Below, in pieces: positions 9,361-22,609 of a DNA stretch of 44,837 nucleotides. The notes beneath the pieces were generated by a model. That model ran no database searches. It was not told where the DNA came from and was given only the letters and a program-made list of their open reading frames with translations. The translations under genes were made by a program, and so were the position numbers. Within the stretch, counting starts at the first letter, position 1. Each line of letters opens with the position of its first letter. This DNA comes from Candidatus Methanoperedens sp. (lineage in GTDB: Archaea > Halobacteriota > Methanosarcinia > Methanosarcinales > Methanoperedenaceae), in NCBI GenBank assembly GCA_026552955.1, contig JAPMTS010000054.1:1-44837 (forward strand), in the 5' to 3' direction.

Positions 9361-9432
9361 GCCCCGATGGGGTAGCGGATATCCTTTGAGATTGCGGATC
9401 TTAAGACCCGGGTTCAATTCCCGGCCGGGGCG
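9361..9432 (+). tRNA. tRNA-Arg (anticodon GCG)
   Basis: The 72 bases fold as a cloverleaf. The acceptor GCCCCGA pairs with CCGGGGC, with one A-C mismatch at the seventh pair. The D arm contains TAGCGGAT. The anticodon stem TGAGA/TCTTA holds the loop TTGCGGA, with anticodon GCG at 9394-9396, which reads CGC (Arg). The T arm is CCGGG-TTCAATT-CCCGG and the discriminator is G. No CCA is encoded, as usual in archaea. The anticodon stem is weak (one GC pair and one GT) and the 7-66 mismatch is unusual, so it may be drifting. The identity rests on the anticodon. Confidence 0.85.
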
Positions 9433-13632: not shown

Positions 13633-14481
13633 GTGATTGAAAGATTAAAGAAACTCGGACTTACAAGCTATGAATCACAGGCTTATATTGCCCTTATTAA
13701 ACTCGGAGATGCCGAGGCTGACGAAATAGCGCAAAATGCAAAAATACCCATGGGCAGAATATATAATGTGCTTTCAGGCCTCGAGGAAGCTCATCTTGTC
13801 CGGGCGCAGGATACAAGACCTCGGCGGTATGCTTGTGTTGATCCTGCTACGGCGCTAATGCGTCTTTCAAATGCGAAACAGGAAGAATTAAGACAGGCTT
13901 CACAGGAAATCCAGGATCTTGCCGATGACCTTACAAATGAACTTTCCGGAATTGTTTCGAGAAAGACAGAAAAGAGCTTCTGGACAGTAGCCATCGGGAA
14001 AAAGTCACATGAACTTATAAGGGAGATCATATCCGGGTCAAGAAAAGAATTACTTTTCTTTATGGCTTCGAAGATGACCTCTGAGAGAATAAGAAAAGAA
14101 CTATTGAAGGAAGATTATGTTGAAATTATGACCGCTCTTTATGACGCCATAAAACTGGGGGTCGAGGTTAAAGTAATTCTTAACAATGACGTAGATTTCA
14201 ATAAGCTTGAAGATTCACCAATAGTCAAGAAAATGATGATTCACATTGGAAAGGAATTCAATTGCAGGCTTGCAACTATTCCCGCAACGCCTTTTGATAT
14301 CATCGATGGGGAAAATGTATTGCTCCAGATGCTGAATCCACTTAACCCTGATGAACTTTTTGCGGTGGTCAATATAAGGGATGAAAAACTTGCAGAAGAG
14401 TTGAGGAATAAATTCTTTACAATATGGGATAAGGCAGAAGTGTATTGTGGAAAAAAACATAACTCTTATATAGAACATTAA
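13633..14481 (+). CDS. TrmB-family transcriptional regulator
   Basis: The 282-residue protein has an N-terminal winged helix (LKKLGLTSYESQAYIALIKLG, IPMGRIYNVLSGLEEAHLV), a coiled linker rich in Glu and Gln (about 85-115), and a C-terminal effector domain of the TrmB type (SHELIREIISGSRKELLFF onward). The start is GTG 13633; the nearby ATG at 13631 is out of frame and stops at once. Family members sense sugars or other small molecules. The divergent split-RND operon and the shared palindrome suggest that it controls that exporter and itself. The ligand is unknown. Confidence 0.88.
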   Translation: MIERLKKLGLTSYESQAYIALIKLGDAEADEIAQNAKIPMGRIYNVLSGLEEAHLVRAQDTRPRRYACVDPATALMRLSNAKQEELRQASQEIQDLADDLTNELSGIVSRKTEKSFWTVAIGKKSHELIREIISGSRKELLFFMASKMTSERIRKELLKEDYVEIMTALYDAIKLGVEVKVILNNDVDFNKLEDSPIVKKMMIHIGKEFNCRLATIPATPFDIIDGENVLLQMLNPLNPDELFAVVNIRDEKLAEELRNKFFTIWDKAEVYCGKKHNSYIEH

Positions 14482-14496
14482 CTCTGGTAAGATTGC

Positions 14497-14550
14497 GATG
14501 GGCAGGTCATTTTTTATATACACTAACCCCCACTCCCCAACCTGTCCATC
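14497..14550. repeat. 54-bp hairpin repeat, copy 1
   Basis: This copy is identical over all 54 bases to the one at 14729-14782, in the same orientation. The ends GATGGGCAGGT and ACCTGTCCATC are inverted repeats with one mismatch, enclosing a TATA-like TTTTTTATATA and a C-rich stretch. It starts 15 bp after the TrmB gene stop. It could be a terminator or a member of a dispersed REP/MITE-like family. Confidence 0.75.
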
Positions 14551-14728
14551 GTCACTTGTTTTCGAAATTTTTTAATTTATTTGGAGAAATTATCCATCAC
14601 AAGTAAGATCAATGGCCAAGCTTTGACCGTTCCTCAATGGAATCTGTGCTTTCTAAATCCGGCGATAATAAAAAGTCCCTTGTTTCAAGCGTTAACTATA
14701 TATATTATAATATATCATCAAGACTATT
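14551..14728. other. Spacer between the two 54-bp repeats, no gene seen
   Basis: This is 178 bases of mostly AT-rich sequence with no convincing coding frame, ending in an (AT)-rich tract at about 14697-14716. On the minus strand a short stretch reads like protein, but I recognise no family. Confidence 0.5.
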
Positions 14729-14782
14729 GATGGGCAGGTCATTTTTTATATACACTAACCCCCACTCCCCAACCTGTCCATC
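14729..14782. repeat. 54-bp hairpin repeat, copy 2
   Basis: An exact copy of 14497-14550, 232 bp further on. It lies 17 bp past the stop of the minus-strand riboflavin synthase gene. Each copy therefore follows the 3' end of one of two convergent genes, which fits a two-way terminator role. Confidence 0.75.
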
Positions 14783-14799: not shown

Positions 14800-15264
<465 letters not shown>

Positions 15265-15456: not shown

Positions 15457-16572
15457 TCATGTATCTTTTGTAATTATTGGTAATGTAAAAGTGAATATAG
15501 TTCCTTCACCATATCTGCTTTTGACCCATATTTTCCCCCCATGAAGCTCGATTAACTTCTTAGAAATGACAAGCCCTAAACCGGTGCCGCCATATTGTCT
15601 TGAAGCCCCTTTATCTAGCTGTTCAAATTCCTTAAACAATCTTCCAATATCCTCTTCTTTTATCCCGATTCCTATATCGCTCACTGAGATCTGGGCCATA
15701 TCACCTTCTTTTCTTGCAGTTAAGGTAACAATCCCCATAGGTTTGGAAAATTTTATAGCATTGTTTAGAATATTAAAAAGCACCTGTCTGATACGATCCC
15801 TATCAGCTTCTATGAAGTCTAATTCCGGGTCAATTTCTGTTATTACTTGAATTTTTTTCTGTTTGGCAAAATCTTTAACGATGGCTATTGATATATTTAT
15901 TACATCAGCTATAGACATTTTTTCGAATGATAAATCGATTTTATCTGCTTCCACTTTTGAAAGATCAAGAATATCATTGATTATCATCAACAGATTGTTT
16001 CCACTTACGTGGATGTTATCAATATATTTTTTCTGGACTTCGTTCAATTCCCCAAATTCCTTTTTTTTCAAAAGGTCTGAAAAACCAATGATCGAGTTCA
16101 ATGGAGTCCGCAATTCATGGCTCATAGCCATCATGAACTCTGATTTTGTTTTGCTTGCCCGAATAAGCCCCTCATTTTCAAGACTCATTTTTTGAATTTT
16201 GTGTTTAAAAAAAGCAATGTCAATGTTTATCTGCAATTCCCTTTCTTTTATTGGTTTTAGCATGTATGCATAGGGCTCTGTAATTTTTGCCCGTTCAATA
16301 GTTTTTTCATCAGAATAAGCGGTCATGAATATGACTGGAATATCAGAAAAAGAATGAATTTGTGATGCTGCTTCGATCCCGTCCATTTCACGATTCAGGT
16401 TGATATCCATTAACACCAGATCGGGATTATTTTCCTTAACCTTTTCAATAGCTTTCTCTCCTGAGGATACTACAACAGGGACATTATATCCCAGGTTTTT
16501 CAATCTTCTTTGTATATCCATTGCTGTAATTGCTTCATCTTCAACGACCAGGATCTGTTTTTTCCCTGTCAT
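15457..16572 (-). CDS. response-regulator/histidine-kinase hybrid (REC-HisKA-HATPase)
   Basis: A cytoplasmic 371-residue protein. The N-terminal receiver has acidic Glu11/Asp12 and phospho-acceptor Asp56 (LVLMDINLN), with Lys in MLKPIKERE. A HisKA domain with His152 (AMSHELRTPLNSIIGFSDLL) follows, then an HATPase with boxes NILNNAIKFS, SDIGIGI, LFKEFEQ and GGTGLGL. It overlaps the upstream sensor kinase by 4 bp. It probably receives phosphate from that kinase at Asp56 and relays through its own His. No DNA-binding output is present. Its receiver is a close paralogue of the one at 20085-20900. Confidence 0.92.
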   Translation of the reverse strand: MTGKKQILVVEDEAITAMDIQRRLKNLGYNVPVVVSSGEKAIEKVKENNPDLVLMDINLNREMDGIEAASQIHSFSDIPVIFMTAYSDEKTIERAKITEPYAYMLKPIKERELQINIDIAFFKHKIQKMSLENEGLIRASKTKSEFMMAMSHELRTPLNSIIGFSDLLKKKEFGELNEVQKKYIDNIHVSGNNLLMIINDILDLSKVEADKIDLSFEKMSIADVINISIAIVKDFAKQKKIQVITEIDPELDFIEADRDRIRQVLFNILNNAIKFSKPMGIVTLTARKEGDMAQISVSDIGIGIKEEDIGRLFKEFEQLDKGASRQYGGTGLGLVISKKLIELHGGKIWVKSRYGEGTIFTFTLPIITKDT

Positions 16573-19500
16573 TTTGTCCCTCTGAAATTAACTTGAAACT
16601 CTGTCCCGCTGTCTCTTTTGAGAATGATCTCACCATTGAGTTGATTCTCTGCAAGGCTGGTGACCAATCTTAAACCCAATGATTCAGTATTTCGTATATC
16701 CAGATCTTTCGGAATACCTATGCCATCATCACTTATTGAAAGTTGGATCATATTATTTTCTTTTGATTTAACTAAAATTCTGATTTTCCCCTGTCTTTCA
16801 TCAGGAAATGCATATTTTAAGCAGTTTGTAACAAGTTCATTAATTATTAGCCCACATGGAACTGCATAATCGATTTTTAGGGGAATGTCTTCTACATCAA
16901 GATCAAATGTTATATTGCTTTTTGTACAATAAGATTCAAATATATTTGAGACTATACTGTCGATATAATCTTTGAAATTAATCTGCGCAAGGCTTTCAGA
17001 TTGATACAGTTTTTGGTGGATAAGGGACATTGAATCTATCCTGGTTTGGCTTTGAATAAAAATATCTTTGTACTTTTTATCCTCGATATTCTGGGATTGA
17101 ATTCCTAGAAGACTGGAAACTATCTGCATATTGTTTTTTACGCGATGATGGATTTCCCTGAGAAGCACTTCTTTCTCTTCGAGAGAAGCCTTGATTTTAA
17201 CTTCAGCAACCTTGCGCTCGGTGATATCATGTGACACATGAATGACTTTAGTGATTCTTCCATGTTCATCCAGTATTGGGGATGTAGAGACCTCTACATA
17301 TTGCTTTTCTCCATCCTTTTTATAATGCACATGCTCGGCTGCCGAATGCTCACCCGATTTCAAAGTTTCTCTTAGTGGGCAGATATCATAGGGAGGAATA
17401 CAAGGTTCTGAACGTTTATGAGTAATCTCATAGCAGCTTTTTCCTATCACTTCTTCTTTCTTCATTCCATAATTCTTCAGGAAAACTGAGTTTACATCGA
17501 TAATCTTGAAATTATTGACATTAATAATACAAATAGCGTCTTTCATACTGCTTAGAACTGTTTCAGCAAATTCTTTTGATTTATTCAGTAATTCCTCTGC
17601 ACGCCTGCGTTGCGTAATGTCAGTTATGATAGCGAGGACTTCTTCCTCTCCAAAAACAACAGTTCGAGCTTCATAATAGCATATGTTGCTTTCTTTTATG
17701 AGCTGATACTGGAAGATTTGCTTTTCTTTGGTTAGTAATGTTTGTTCTACGTGACCCATGATCTGCTCTGCGACATTTTGCGGCATGACATCCCGTATAT
17801 TTCGTCCTATACACCCCTGGAAAAGAGCCATCTGATTCTTATCTTTTGCACCATTGTATTTGGAAATAGTTCCATTTTTTTTGATCTGAAGTATTGAATC
17901 TGGCATTGCTTCCAGTATGGCTCGATTATTCGCCTCGCTTTTGCTCACCTTTTCCTGAGATTTTTCAAGAGCATCCAGCATATTGTTGAGAGAACCTGCC
18001 AGGTTGGATAATTCGTCTTTTCCTTCGACAACTACTCGTGATGAAGTAGTACCACTTTTTCCAATATTTTTCACCTCAGAATCAAAACGATTCAGCCTGC
18101 GTAGTACAAAGATCTCTAATAATGCCACAATCACAATACTGAATACCGAACAAATCATTATAAGAGAGAGAATAAAATATCTCATTGTTTCTATTCCCTG
18201 TTTGGATATTCCTCTTGGCACCTCAACTTTCAGTACAACCCCTGGTTTTCCATAAATATCATCTACGAAGGTATATCCTGCAATTGACTCTGTGCTGACC
18301 GGTCGGATATATATCGGTTCATCCTTTGAAAACAATGGAAGAACCGACTGGAAATCAGAAGGCATCTGATTATCATCAAAACGATAGATAGAAAGAGGGA
18401 GGTGTATTATTCCGGAAATCCGCTCTATTTCCTTTGAATTCAGAAAGCGTCCCATGATCATGGTTCCTCGAATCGGGCCAATTCTGTCATTATCCAAAAT
18501 AGGTTGTGAGGAAACAAGCATTGGACTCTCAGGAATAAGTAATATTCCTGTTTTATTGCTCTCATTGTCGAAATGCTGCAGGAGATAGTCATCCGGGGAT
18601 AGTTTATCTTTAAAATATCGTGGAACGGGTACTTCAGTCTGGTTTTCAAGATCAAATGCTTTTCCATAGACAATGTTACCTGAAGAATGTATGAACATCA
18701 TTAGATTTACCCTGAGGTTGGTAAAAATTTCCAAACGCAGATTTGATCTTATATACTCCTCATTCCTATCATTGATGAATAAATAAGTATCATTCCACGA
18801 AGCCCAATCCGTTTCTGTGGTGCTTAGTTTATTGATATCATCCTTTAGCGTATCCCGAACAAGTTGAGTTTTTTGGTGGGAATATTGTTCCTCCAGGCTG
18901 GTGAATCTATCCATCACGATTATTTGAGAAGCTGTAAAAAGAAGAATGATCAATAAAAGAAAAACGGTACCCATAATGAGTAATATTTTATTGCGCAGGG
19001 TCAGTGATTCCATCATTTTATTGAGGTTTCGATTACCCGTTGATAACTTCCCAATTCTTCCTATCGAGACTCTCGAAAAAATGTCTCTACTTCTCCTAAT
19101 GTCCTGCACCTGCGCATCGAGGTTGTTAAGCCTCGTTAATACAAAATATTTAAGAATATATAAAAAAACTGCTACAAATATTATCCCTATTATGACAAGC
19201 AAAAGGAGAAAATAATCAAGTGTTTCTTTTCCTTGATCATGAACTACTCTTAATGTTTCTACCTTTAAAATAAGAGCTGGATTGCCATAGATGTCATTTA
19301 TTAGAGTATATCCGGCAATCGATTTATCAGAAAGCTGTTGGATGAAAATCGGATTATCTTTGGAGAGGAATGAAAGCGCTGTTTGAAAAGCTGAGGGCAT
19401 CTGTACATCATCCAATCTTTGAATAGTAAGAGGTAAATGAGTGATTCCTGATAAGCGCTGGATTTCGGATTCGTCCAGGTAACGCCCCATGATGATCGTT

Positions 19501-20033
19501 CCGCCCACAGGAAGTTCTCCTTTATTGGTGATAGGCCATGAAGAAAGAAGCATTGGACCTTCAGGAAGGAGAATTATACCTTTCATGGTGCTTCCAACTC
19601 CATGATGCTGCACAAGAACATCGCTGTCAGAAATATCCGAAAAATAAGGTGGAACAGGTATTTCATTCTGGTTTTCAAGATCAATTGCTGTGCTACCCAC
19701 TATTTTCCCGGATAAATTCGTGTACACCATAAGGTTAATCATTAAATTGTTATTAGTATCAGCGTTCAGATACTCCCTGGAAAAGTTTTCATTCTGATCA
19801 TGAACAAAGAAGTAGGAGTCATCCCATACAGCCCAATCTCCTGTCGTACTGTCAATTTTGATTATGGACTCATTAAGGGCATTCTCTGCGATTTCAACAT
19901 TCTCCCGTGAATACTCTTCATCCATTTTGTCGAAGCTATCCATCAGGATGATTTGAGAGGCTCCATAGATACACAGTACCATTACAGCAACTGCTAAACT
20001 AACGATTAACAAGGTTTTTTTGTATAAGTTCAT
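16569..20033 (-). CDS. sensor histidine kinase with two tandem CHASE4 domains
   Basis: The 1154-residue layout is: helix about 7-30; CHASE4 (DWAVWDDSYFF, 66-76) to about 270; helix 275-297; degenerate HAMP; helix about 348-372; a second CHASE4 (DWASWNDTYLF, 409-419) to about 610; helix 618-642; HAMP (GKDELSNLAGSLNNML); PAS 700-810; PAS 822-940; HisKA_2 with EIHHRVKNNMQ (His962/963); HATPase (NELVTNCLKYAFPD, SDDGIGIP). The second PAS holds the Cys-rich stretch CYEITHKRSEPCIPPYDICP. The two sensor units look like an internal duplication. The phosphate acceptor is probably the overlapping downstream receiver protein. The ligand is unknown. Confidence 0.9.
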   Translation of the reverse strand: MNLYKKTLLIVSLAVAVMVLCIYGASQIILMDSFDKMDEEYSRENVEIAENALNESIIKIDSTTGDWAVWDDSYFFVHDQNENFSREYLNADTNNNLMINLMVYTNLSGKIVGSTAIDLENQNEIPVPPYFSDISDSDVLVQHHGVGSTMKGIILLPEGPMLLSSWPITNKGELPVGGTIIMGRYLDESEIQRLSGITHLPLTIQRLDDVQMPSAFQTALSFLSKDNPIFIQQLSDKSIAGYTLINDIYGNPALILKVETLRVVHDQGKETLDYFLLLLVIIGIIFVAVFLYILKYFVLTRLNNLDAQVQDIRRSRDIFSRVSIGRIGKLSTGNRNLNKMMESLTLRNKILLIMGTVFLLLIILLFTASQIIVMDRFTSLEEQYSHQKTQLVRDTLKDDINKLSTTETDWASWNDTYLFINDRNEEYIRSNLRLEIFTNLRVNLMMFIHSSGNIVYGKAFDLENQTEVPVPRYFKDKLSPDDYLLQHFDNESNKTGILLIPESPMLVSSQPILDNDRIGPIRGTMIMGRFLNSKEIERISGIIHLPLSIYRFDDNQMPSDFQSVLPLFSKDEPIYIRPVSTESIAGYTFVDDIYGKPGVVLKVEVPRGISKQGIETMRYFILSLIMICSVFSIVIVALLEIFVLRRLNRFDSEVKNIGKSGTTSSRVVVEGKDELSNLAGSLNNMLDALEKSQEKVSKSEANNRAILEAMPDSILQIKKNGTISKYNGAKDKNQMALFQGCIGRNIRDVMPQNVAEQIMGHVEQTLLTKEKQIFQYQLIKESNICYYEARTVVFGEEEVLAIITDITQRRRAEELLNKSKEFAETVLSSMKDAICIINVNNFKIIDVNSVFLKNYGMKKEEVIGKSCYEITHKRSEPCIPPYDICPLRETLKSGEHSAAEHVHYKKDGEKQYVEVSTSPILDEHGRITKVIHVSHDITERKVAEVKIKASLEEKEVLLREIHHRVKNNMQIVSSLLGIQSQNIEDKKYKDIFIQSQTRIDSMSLIHQKLYQSESLAQINFKDYIDSIVSNIFESYCTKSNITFDLDVEDIPLKIDYAVPCGLIINELVTNCLKYAFPDERQGKIRILVKSKENNMIQLSISDDGIGIPKDLDIRNTESLGLRLVTSLAENQLNGEIILKRDSGTEFQVNFRGTK

Positions 20034-20084
20034 AAAATATATTTGAAAGTTACCAGGATTTGTGTCCCCTATTAATGATTTGGT

Positions 20085-20900
20085 TTAATGTGATTTTCGC
20101 GCTTCATAAATTCTGTTGCGTTCAACAATATCATAGAAAATCAGTACAACACCAATGATTCTATCCATGTCATCTTTGATTTGTGTCCCGATAATATCAA
20201 CAGGAATTCTTGTCCCGTTCTTAGTAATCAAAAACGTTTGATCTGCAAGGCCATAAAACATACCTTCTCTTATCACTTTATTAACAGGATCGTCTACATT
20301 TTTACCGGTATCTTCACAGGCAATATTAAAGACAAGTGGCAAGGTTTTATCAAGAGAATCTTCCTTATTCCAGCCGGTCAGTGCTTGAGCTATGGGATTT
20401 ATTAGTTTAATTATTCCATTTTGATCTGTTGCTATGACTGCATCAGCTATATTGTCAACAGCAGCCTCTAACCACTTTTTACTTTCTCTTAACTTCTCAT
20501 AACTTTCTTTTAACTTCTTCTCCATCGTGTTTCTATAGAAAGCAATTTCAAGATTTATCTGTAATTCTCTGTCTTTAAATGGTTTTACTAAGTATGCATA
20601 AGGTTCTGAAATTTTTGCCCGTTGAAGAGTTGTATCATCGGAATATGCAGTCAGGTATATTACGGGAATATCTGAAAAAGAATGGATTTTTGATGCTGTC
20701 TCGATCCCATCCATTTCTCTATTCAAATTAATATCCATTAACACAAGATCGGGATGATTTTCCTTTACTTTTTCAATGGCTTTCTCTCCCGAGGACACTA
20801 CTACAGGGACATCATATCCCAGGTTTTTCAATCTTCTTTGTATATCCATTGCTGTGACTATTTCATCTTCAACGACCAGGATCTGCTTTTTTTCTGTCAT
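20085..20900 (-). CDS. response regulator, receiver plus PAS
   Basis: The 271-residue protein has a receiver domain (Asp56 in LVLMDINLN, Lys in LVKPFKDRE), a short coiled linker and one PAS domain (AAVDNIADAVIATDQNGIIK to GVVLIFYDIVERNRIYEARK). It ends just after the PAS, with no kinase or DNA-binding output. The first 120 residues are nearly the same as those of the 15457-16572 protein, showing that the two cassettes are duplicates whose downstream parts differ. It overlaps the upstream kinase by 4 bp. It could be a truncated hybrid kinase or a real REC-PAS relay protein. Confidence 0.88.
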   Translation of the reverse strand: MTEKKQILVVEDEIVTAMDIQRRLKNLGYDVPVVVSSGEKAIEKVKENHPDLVLMDINLNREMDGIETASKIHSFSDIPVIYLTAYSDDTTLQRAKISEPYAYLVKPFKDRELQINLEIAFYRNTMEKKLKESYEKLRESKKWLEAAVDNIADAVIATDQNGIIKLINPIAQALTGWNKEDSLDKTLPLVFNIACEDTGKNVDDPVNKVIREGMFYGLADQTFLITKNGTRIPVDIIGTQIKDDMDRIIGVVLIFYDIVERNRIYEARKSH

Positions 20901-22609
20901 TTTGTCCCTCTAACATTGATTTGAAATTCTGTCCCCCGATCTCTCAATAATATGATCTCACCATCGAGTTGATTTTCTACAAGTTGCGTCACCATATTTA
21001 AACCCAATGTTTTGGTATTTCGAATATCCAGATCTTTCGGAATGCCTACGCCATCATCACTTATAGTAAGTTGGAGCATATTATTATCTTTTTGTTTGAA
21101 TGTAATTTTTATTGTTCCCTGTCTCCCATCCGGAAAAGCATATTTTAAGGAATTCATGAGAAGTTCATTGATTATCAATCCACATGGAACTGATTTATTA
21201 ATATCCAGGATAACATTTTCCACGTTAATTTCTAATTTTACGTTGCCTGTCCTCCCATAAGAATTCAGGAGATTGGATGCCAGTTCATGAATGTATTCTT
21301 TGACATCAATGCTTTCAAAGTCCTTGGATTGGTAGAGTTTTTCATGAATAAGGGCTATAGAAAGTATGCGGTTATTACTATCATTAAAAATATTGATATA
21401 CTTTTGATCTTGGATATTTTGGGTTTGAAGTAAGAGAAGACTGGAAACTACCTGCATATTATTCTTGACACGATGATGGATTTCCCGGAGAAGCACTTCT
21501 TTTTCTTGAAGTGACTTATTAAGCTGCAACGTGCGTACTTCAACCATTTCCTCAAGGTGGTCGCGGTGTTTTTTCAATTCTGTCATCATTTTGTTGAATA
21601 CCCCAGAGAGGTTTGATAATTCATCCTCACCTTCAATCGCAAGAGGTACTGTGAGATTGCTGGATGTACTAATCTCACTCATTTTAGAGCTGAGAATAGC
21701 TAACCTGGATAATACATTATTCTCGAGAAGCCAGAGAATAACAATGCCAAAGATGAATCCTGATCCAATGATCGAGACCACGAGATAATTCATCGTATTC
21801 TGTCCTTGCATGTGAATTCCTCTGGGTATCTCTGCTTTTAACACAATAGCCGGTTTTCCTTCAATGTCATTAAGAAGAATATTTCCAGCAATTATTTCAT
21901 TGCTTATTGGTTGAATGAATATTGGTTTTTCTGGTGATAATGTTTTTATTGCTAAAAGAAAATCAGAAGTGCCCGGGTCGTCGAATCGACGGTAGGAAAG
22001 GGATAAATGGGTAATACTTGACAACCGCTCAATTTCCGTTGAATCCAGGAAGCTCCCAATGATCAGAGTTCCCATGATGGGGCCCTCACGTGCACTCGTA
22101 ATAACAGGTCTTGAAGCGATAAGGACTGGACCTTCAGGGAGGTTAATAATCCCTTTCATGCTACTATTTAAATCTTTATGTTTTAAAAGAATATTATTGG
22201 CAAAGGAGTCATGTTCAAAGAATTCTGGAATATCGATCACATCGTGATTCTCATTATCTATTCCCATACCAAAAAGCAAGGTTCCAGAAATATTATAGAA
22301 CAGCATATAATTAATACGGAGGTTAGCAAGAGCAGAAGGAATGACATTGGCTTCGACAAATGCTCTATTGCCATCCTGAACATAAATATAGGTGTCATCC
22401 CATGCAGCATAATCACCTGCAATACTATCCAATCTTTTAGTGTCATCGAGGAGAGCATCTCTTGCTCGTTCAATATTCTTCTGAGTATCTTGCTCTTCCA
22501 ATTGTTTAAAGCTTCCCAGTAAAATGAATTGCGAGGTCGTATACAATATTGCTATAAGACAAAATAAGGTTATCCCGATTATTAATAGTGTTTTCTTGCG
22601 TAGTTGCAT
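20897..22609 (-). CDS. sensor histidine kinase, CHASE4-HAMP-HisKA_2
   Basis: A 570-residue membrane kinase. Helix about 7-29 is followed by an outer CHASE4 domain (DYAAWDDTYIYV), a second helix (VVSIIGSGFIFGIVILWLL), HAMP (AIEGEDELSNLSGVFNKMM), a coil, HisKA_2 (LREIHHRVKNNMQVVSSLL) and an HATPase (NELLMNSLKYAFPDGRQG, ISDDGVGIPKD). The C-terminal half is very similar to that of the 1154-residue kinase, which adds a second CHASE4 and two PAS domains. The promoter is presumably in the 230-bp gap upstream; GAGGAT precedes the ATG. Confidence 0.92.
   Translation of the reverse strand: MQLRKKTLLIIGITLFCLIAILYTTSQFILLGSFKQLEEQDTQKNIERARDALLDDTKRLDSIAGDYAAWDDTYIYVQDGNRAFVEANVIPSALANLRINYMLFYNISGTLLFGMGIDNENHDVIDIPEFFEHDSFANNILLKHKDLNSSMKGIINLPEGPVLIASRPVITSAREGPIMGTLIIGSFLDSTEIERLSSITHLSLSYRRFDDPGTSDFLLAIKTLSPEKPIFIQPISNEIIAGNILLNDIEGKPAIVLKAEIPRGIHMQGQNTMNYLVVSIIGSGFIFGIVILWLLENNVLSRLAILSSKMSEISTSSNLTVPLAIEGEDELSNLSGVFNKMMTELKKHRDHLEEMVEVRTLQLNKSLQEKEVLLREIHHRVKNNMQVVSSLLLLQTQNIQDQKYINIFNDSNNRILSIALIHEKLYQSKDFESIDVKEYIHELASNLLNSYGRTGNVKLEINVENVILDINKSVPCGLIINELLMNSLKYAFPDGRQGTIKITFKQKDNNMLQLTISDDGVGIPKDLDIRNTKTLGLNMVTQLVENQLDGEIILLRDRGTEFQINVRGTK

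Follow-up and report, generated by a model that had tools for sequence, protein, structure and literature searches.

The two identical 54-nt hairpins that lie between convergent genes in the window, by which we mean the whole 44,837-nt stretch of Candidatus Methanoperedens sp. contig JAPMTS010000054.1 analyzed here, are very probably complete sRNA genes, each independently transcribed from the + strand and both belonging to a multi-copy family. Comparative evidence at the sequence level establishes the family, its RNA structure, its coding strand, the position of its promoter, its vertical inheritance and the homogenization of its copies. The hairpins apparently represent a new, undescribed sRNA family of Methanosarcinia, whose breadth and loop conservation are unusual.

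The hairpin pair and its neighborhood

The initial annotation reported two 54-bp copies identical at every base, loop included, and 178 bp apart, and this is exactly what we find (100% identity; Table 1). On the + strand the RNA of each copy folds into a single 11-bp stem, with one G.U pair, closed by a 32-nt loop (−15.0 kcal/mol, z = −3.8; 0 of 200 shuffles equally stable); the − strand of the 54-mer folds at chance level (z = −0.8). The loop of copy 1 carries U6 in its 5' half and a conserved C-rich core, CTAACCCCCACTCCCCAACC, in its 3' half, and the hairpin arms are strongly over-represented in the window relative to expectation. The covariance model of the family, R1, scores copy 1 at 69.5 bits (E 9.4e-13 in a search of the window). 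The copies lie 15 and 17 bp from the stop codons of the convergent trmB and ribC-like genes, as had been noted, and the predicted promoter of copy 1 overlaps the final trmB codons. The DMRL_synthase-family neighbor is probably the archaeal riboflavin synthase RibC, and ribC-related genes adjoin the sRNA site in about 10 further loci.

Two other repeats were seen elsewhere in the window: an inverted repeat at 118-171 (25-bp arms, 96% complementary, 4-nt loop), forming a long hairpin unrelated to the 54-mers, and duplicated neighboring segments in histidine-kinase/response-regulator genes at 15457-21514, whose stretches, separated by 4328 bp, are 84% and 75% identical.

Table 1. Features of the predicted sRNA genes in the window, their neighbors and related hairpins in the same genome (G000)
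Feature	Position	Strand	Evidence or remark
TrmB-family transcriptional regulator	13633..14481	+	Pfam PF01978, E 2.2e-21
Predicted promoter, sRNA copy 1	14450..14472	+	Sequence; family-wide TATA position
BRE-like purine-rich stretch, copy 1	14450-14458	+	
TATA box CTTATATA, copy 1	14465-14472	+	32-25 nt 5' of hairpin
Predicted sRNA copy 1	14497..14550	+	Hairpin arms GATGGGCAGGT / ACCTGTCCATC
T-rich tail (TTGTTTT..., TTTTTT), copy 1	14556..14579	+	Probable terminator; sequence, family-wide downstream T-tracts
Predicted promoter, sRNA copy 2	14690..14704	+	CGTTAA BRE-like and TATA stretch; sequence, family-wide TATA position
TATA stretch CTATATATA, copy 2	14696-14704	+	~33-25 nt 5' of hairpin
Predicted sRNA copy 2	14729..14782	+	54 nt as in copy 1
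T-rich tail TTATTTTATTT, copy 2	14800..14810	+	Overlaps 3' end of convergent gene; sequence
DMRL_synthase-family protein	14800..15261	-	Pfam PF00885, E 9.5e-19
Related hairpins (G000)	C28:85496-85547; C46:15454-15506 and 15634-15686; C28:119569-119771		
Related hairpins (G000)	C26:10846-10901; C51:22349-22397; C5:194166-194224; C37:77590-77642 and 77772-77824		
Related hairpins (G000)	C46:67778-67835; C27:6591-6647		

An invariant loop on a covarying stem

To characterize the RNA structure we used an alignment (A2) of 42 distinct copies on the C-rich strand, which had been gathered by the loop with the stem left out of the selection. In this alignment 95.9% of the cells of the 10-bp stem are paired, both sides have changed in 7 of the 10 stem pairs, and the stem covariation is 0.499, as against 0.238 ± 0.017 for shuffled and at most 0.16 for slid alignments. 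This is the covarying, conserved secondary structure expected of an archaeal intergenic sRNA gene. While the stem sequence varies, the loop core of about 19 bases, UAACCCCCACUCCCCAACC (CUAACCCCCACUCCCCAACC), is nearly invariant; a run of U occupies the 5' half of the loop in nearly every copy, and the Methanolobus- and Methanosarcina-type copies carry the C-rich motif twice within one loop. The stem, in other words, needs only its pairing, and the exposed loop must retain its sequence: judged by its comparative record, this is the anatomy of a small trans-acting RNA. The non-Watson-Crick stem pairs further identify the strand. Read on the C-rich strand they comprise 17 G.U and 2 A.C pairs (13:2 when distinct stems are counted); hence, the structured RNA is that of the C-rich strand, i.e., the + strand of the window. 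A coding role was also considered and ruled out: loop length differs by single bases among copies, so the element is non-coding, and start codons are not kept.

Predicted promoter and transcript boundaries

Read along the C-rich strand, the flanks show an archaeal TATA box that begins about 31 nt 5' of the hairpin. We assessed it on 85 non-redundant copies with unrelated flanks, for which the promoter was not a selection criterion: 68% have a match of at least 7/8 at −38..−26 and 32% have none at that level; the corresponding frequencies are 3.5% for the mirror side, 4.4% for shuffled flanks and 1-7% for the remaining upstream windows. Both window TATA boxes are good matches, short of perfect. 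At the other end, a run of at least four T residues occurs within 40 nt downstream in 68% of the copies, as against 25% upstream. Most copies thus possess the BRE/TATA promoter of their own, at a fixed distance, that marks an archaeal intergenic sRNA gene. In Methanolobus psychrophilus, TATA boxes are placed 19-22 nt from the start site where promoter spacing is described (PMC5378194), a spacing by which the predicted start falls at the stem or immediately 5' of it; for copy 1, the RNA 5' end is predicted within a few nt of 14497.

Some promoters bear further elements. Subfamily-specific palindromes occur at the sRNA promoters of L162, L163, L165-L167 and L169 of the same genome and of L079, L093, L098, L106 and L128 from Methanolobus and related genomes. 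They are of two kinds: TTCG-N8-CGAA, which lies between the TATA box and the start, and a ATCATNATGATGAT-like motif 5' of the TATA box, conserved in some Methanolobus copies. Both are candidate operators on the strength of their placement, and that such promoter-proximal palindromes differ between loop classes suggests condition-dependent expression.

These boundaries bear on the proposal of the initial annotation that the hairpins might be dual terminators, and on the related one, raised here, that they are stabilizing 3'-UTR structures of both convergent mRNAs. Such a role would fit the closeness of each window copy to a stop codon and the T-tracts that follow the hairpins on the + strand. 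Against it, the T-tract lies mainly on one side rather than on both strands; the − strand hairpin, which the ribC mRNA would carry, folds at chance level, with the G.U bias likewise opposing a role there; the TATA box of copy 1 precedes the trmB stop; and other copies stand upstream of genes or in other orientations. A terminator does not require an invariant 19-nt loop, whereas here the loop is the conserved part and the hairpin opens a predicted transcription unit of its own, with no requirement for gene 3' ends. We therefore abandon this proposal as very improbable. The many copies that come after a + strand stop had at first led us to read the element as the 3'-UTR of the G-strand gene upstream of it; the G.U test and the promoter profile made us drop this.

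A hairpin acting at the DNA level, as a single-stranded protein-binding or recombination site, deserves mention since the tandem pairs, about 120-240 bp apart, resemble pairs of recombination sites and G.T pairs are tolerated in DNA as well. Nevertheless, it would leave the fixed upstream promoter and the downstream T-tract unexplained and sits poorly with the vertical inheritance described below; we regard it as highly unlikely, if marginally less so than the terminators.

Distribution, inheritance and homogenization

BLAST of the same genome recovered, besides the pair, copies that share chiefly the loop, and a DNA-level search of relatives found copies in 52 of 60, frequently paired on one strand at a distance of 120-240 bp. 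R1 matches occur in 175 of the 186 genomes of the order (117 of the 118 good ones), representing 25 of its 27 genera with 1-16 copies per genome. When 393 genomes were sampled from the phylum, each of the 84 R1 matches fell inside the class, a second family, f6, included. Seven R1 matches at E <1e-4 are present in the 2.48-Mb assembly of the genome itself, and Methanosarcina has two or three copies; the genome that we take to be that of M. psychrophilus R15 (G118) has only 3-5 matches, which serves as a lead only. An exact scan of GTDB genomes for the 19-nt core returned 105 stretches, from the Methanosarcinales group (Methanoperedens, Methanolobus, Methanomethylovorans, Methanococcoides, Methanohalobium and ANME-2) or, for a few, under broader or uncultured-archaeon titles; a Treponema match (L108) proved to be a G-rich repeat and was excluded from the family. 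The exact core has no match in viral contigs. Rfam 15 matched only a tRNA (9361-9432) in the window, with no family for the hairpins, and gave nothing relevant at E up to 1 for the loci L001, L003, L004 and L005; the core strings were not found in the full-text literature searched. It is because of the absence of both an Rfam match and the core strings in that literature that we regard the family as new.

In gene context the copies are intergenic throughout the family and occur in all four gene orientations; hence, the association with gene 3' ends is incidental, and the convergent setting of the window pair, real as it is, is a local one. Sites judged orthologous by their flanking genes are common to up to seven loci, some of different genera, and the ribC site is common to many Methanoperedens. 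Such orthology across species and genera points to vertical inheritance rather than mobility.

Thus, the suggestion of an undescribed REP/MITE-like family held in one half: there is an undescribed multi-copy family, with matches across the order, and its members share with REP elements and MITEs their short, palindromic, multi-copy and intergenic nature. Yet a transposase-spread mobile or repetitive DNA would be expected at non-orthologous sites in many recent copies and with conserved ends, whereas we find a mere 1-16 copies per genome at orthologous sites, a stem that varies around an invariant loop, a promoter at fixed distance predicting an RNA gene, a G.U bias towards one strand and an exact core absent from viral contigs. 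We consider this alternative the least credible but one of those weighed here.

The history of the window pair itself can be read from three relatives. Their trmB-side copy matches the window copy at 57/57, 57/57 and 55/56 positions, and their ribC-side copy has a different loop allele, with substitutions and indels. Both flanks align with the matching window flanks, weakly in more distant relatives, and window copy 2 combines flanks like those of the relatives' ribC-side copy with 54 nt equal to copy 1. As the relatives' trmB-side copy is the same or nearly so and their ribC-side copy different, the identity of the window pair would be due to gene conversion, and the simplest reading of the alignments is that the ribC-side copy was converted in this lineage over its RNA-coding part only. 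Further tandem pairs are likewise alike within one genome. The identity, which had been ascribed to recent copying or selection, reads as the outcome of both. A recent local duplication of no wider meaning would also yield a perfectly identical pair, and had been named as the simpler reading should these be the only two copies anywhere; it is refuted by at least seven strong copies in the genome, by copies in nearly all genomes of the order, and by flanks whose counterparts in relatives are two distinct, older sites.

Related loop classes in the same genome

The genome additionally encodes weaker paralogs (L161-L171, L245 and L255; Table 1), which display the same scaffold and their own TATA-like boxes with different C-rich loops, namely UACCACCCACUCCCC, UACCACCAUAAUCCCC and CACUCCCACACACCUAUCCAACG; several again form tandem pairs. 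Together with the main family they probably constitute an sRNA superfamily, to go by their shared scaffold. A broader version has, in our estimate, an even chance of being right: a class-wide, near-universal superfamily with a fixed hairpin/U-run scaffold, exchangeable C-rich loops and, in some classes, a promoter operator of its own, counting class I and at least three related loop classes, about 15 genes, in this one genome. If this is true, Methanosarcinia would possess a hitherto unknown global riboregulator or RNP system of modular build.

Possible mechanism of action

Briefly, we advance the following mechanism. From the BRE/TATA promoter, transcription would begin at the hairpin or a few nucleotides 5' of it, to yield a transcript that is more or less the hairpin alone: a GC-rich stem of 9-11 bp closed by a loop of about 30 nt, whose 5' half holds U5-9 and whose 3' half holds the C-rich 19-mer that hardly varies. 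A T-rich tail would end the transcript, for a total of about 60-90 nt. The genome holds a family of such predicted genes, several in tandem pairs, and conversion confined to the transcribed part appears to have homogenized the window pair. We infer from sequence comparison that the RNA is produced, where it ends, and that it regulates in trans through the exposed C-rich loop, which would pair with specific mRNAs or bind an RNA-binding protein; the U-run is a possible Lsm/SmAP site.

Target tests constrain this last step. Against translation-initiation regions the loop pairs no better than shuffles, 25 of 40 shuffled loops pairing at least as well, and its complementarity to ribosome-binding sites does not exceed that due to composition, unlike an anti-SD sRNA. 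Exact 9-mer complements of the loop outside the sRNA genes number six in the genome, equal to the reversed-pattern control total, with none at a ribosome-binding site; a search for long mRNA complements was negative. A pairing test against rRNA was also negative. With three target tests negative, either a small number of targets is recognized through short seeds or a protein binds the loop, and we slightly prefer the former. Pairing with mRNAs in trans is accordingly put forward as a tentative proposal, falling somewhat short of an even chance.

A little less probable still is that the same sRNA genes yield an RNA that acts as sponge or RNP scaffold for a C-rich/U-rich RNA-binding protein, which it would bind or titrate, with no mRNA pairing. 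It would account for a loop more invariant than variable mRNA targets usually permit, for the doubled motif of single loops of the Methanosarcina and Methanolobus type, for the U-run in the loop of nearly all copies and for the lack of enrichment of complementary sites; on the other hand, the partner protein is still putative, and the altered C-rich loops of the paralogous classes resemble diversified seeds.

Two complements of the loop were considered individually as targets. In a Methanosarcinales MAG (L126, JAUWTY010000001.1, position 5275, reverse strand) one complement, perfect over 19 nt and with no hairpin, lies behind a promoter-like sequence, 7 nt before the ATG of a 29-codon ORF; it is possibly a target, a decoy or a chance match. 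In the genome itself (L019, G000:C34:13281) the leader of a uvrC-like gene contains a 17/19 complement, located 171 nt upstream of the start, which may be due to chance.

Significance and comparison with known systems

To our knowledge, archaeal sRNAs of known function are few, and mostly single RNAs at the level of a genus. Multiple copies, an invariant loop and retention across the methanogens and anaerobic methane oxidizers of one class together make the present sRNA a strong candidate for the role of core regulator in methane metabolism or stress. The family is directly testable in the genetically tractable Methanosarcina, and a covariance model derived from it can be used to annotate Methanosarcinia genomes.

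Among bacteria, the alphaproteobacterial 'cuckoo' RNAs CcsR1-4 are sibling sRNAs whose loops are C-rich or of the anti-SD type. The likeness, which we draw by analogy, is that both would be small tandem or multi-copy RNAs presenting a conserved pyrimidine-rich loop on a stem; they differ in that the CcsR RNAs are bacterial, with other sequence and organization, and the loop of the present family has no generic anti-SD preference.

Closer in phylogenetic terms are sRNA154 and sRNA41 of Methanosarcina mazei, likewise intergenic archaeal sRNAs and of the same order, with loop 2 of sRNA154 and sRNA41 described as masking ribosome-binding sites (PMC5867862). They are described there as individual RNAs rather than a multi-copy, class-wide family, and sRNA154 has two loops, unlike the single hairpin found here; it is by description that they are set apart, and some Methanosarcina members of the family are possibly identical with one or the other. 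Members may indeed stand unrecognized in the sRNA catalogs of M. mazei and M. psychrophilus (PMC5867862, PMC5378194). In M. psychrophilus R15, cold is described as inducing nine sRNAs, all highly conserved and preceded by a 'cold box' (PMC5378194). Compared by that description, these are multi-copy, conserved and in a genus that carries the present family, and the ATCATNATGATGAT-like motif of the Methanolobus promoters is possibly this very cold box.
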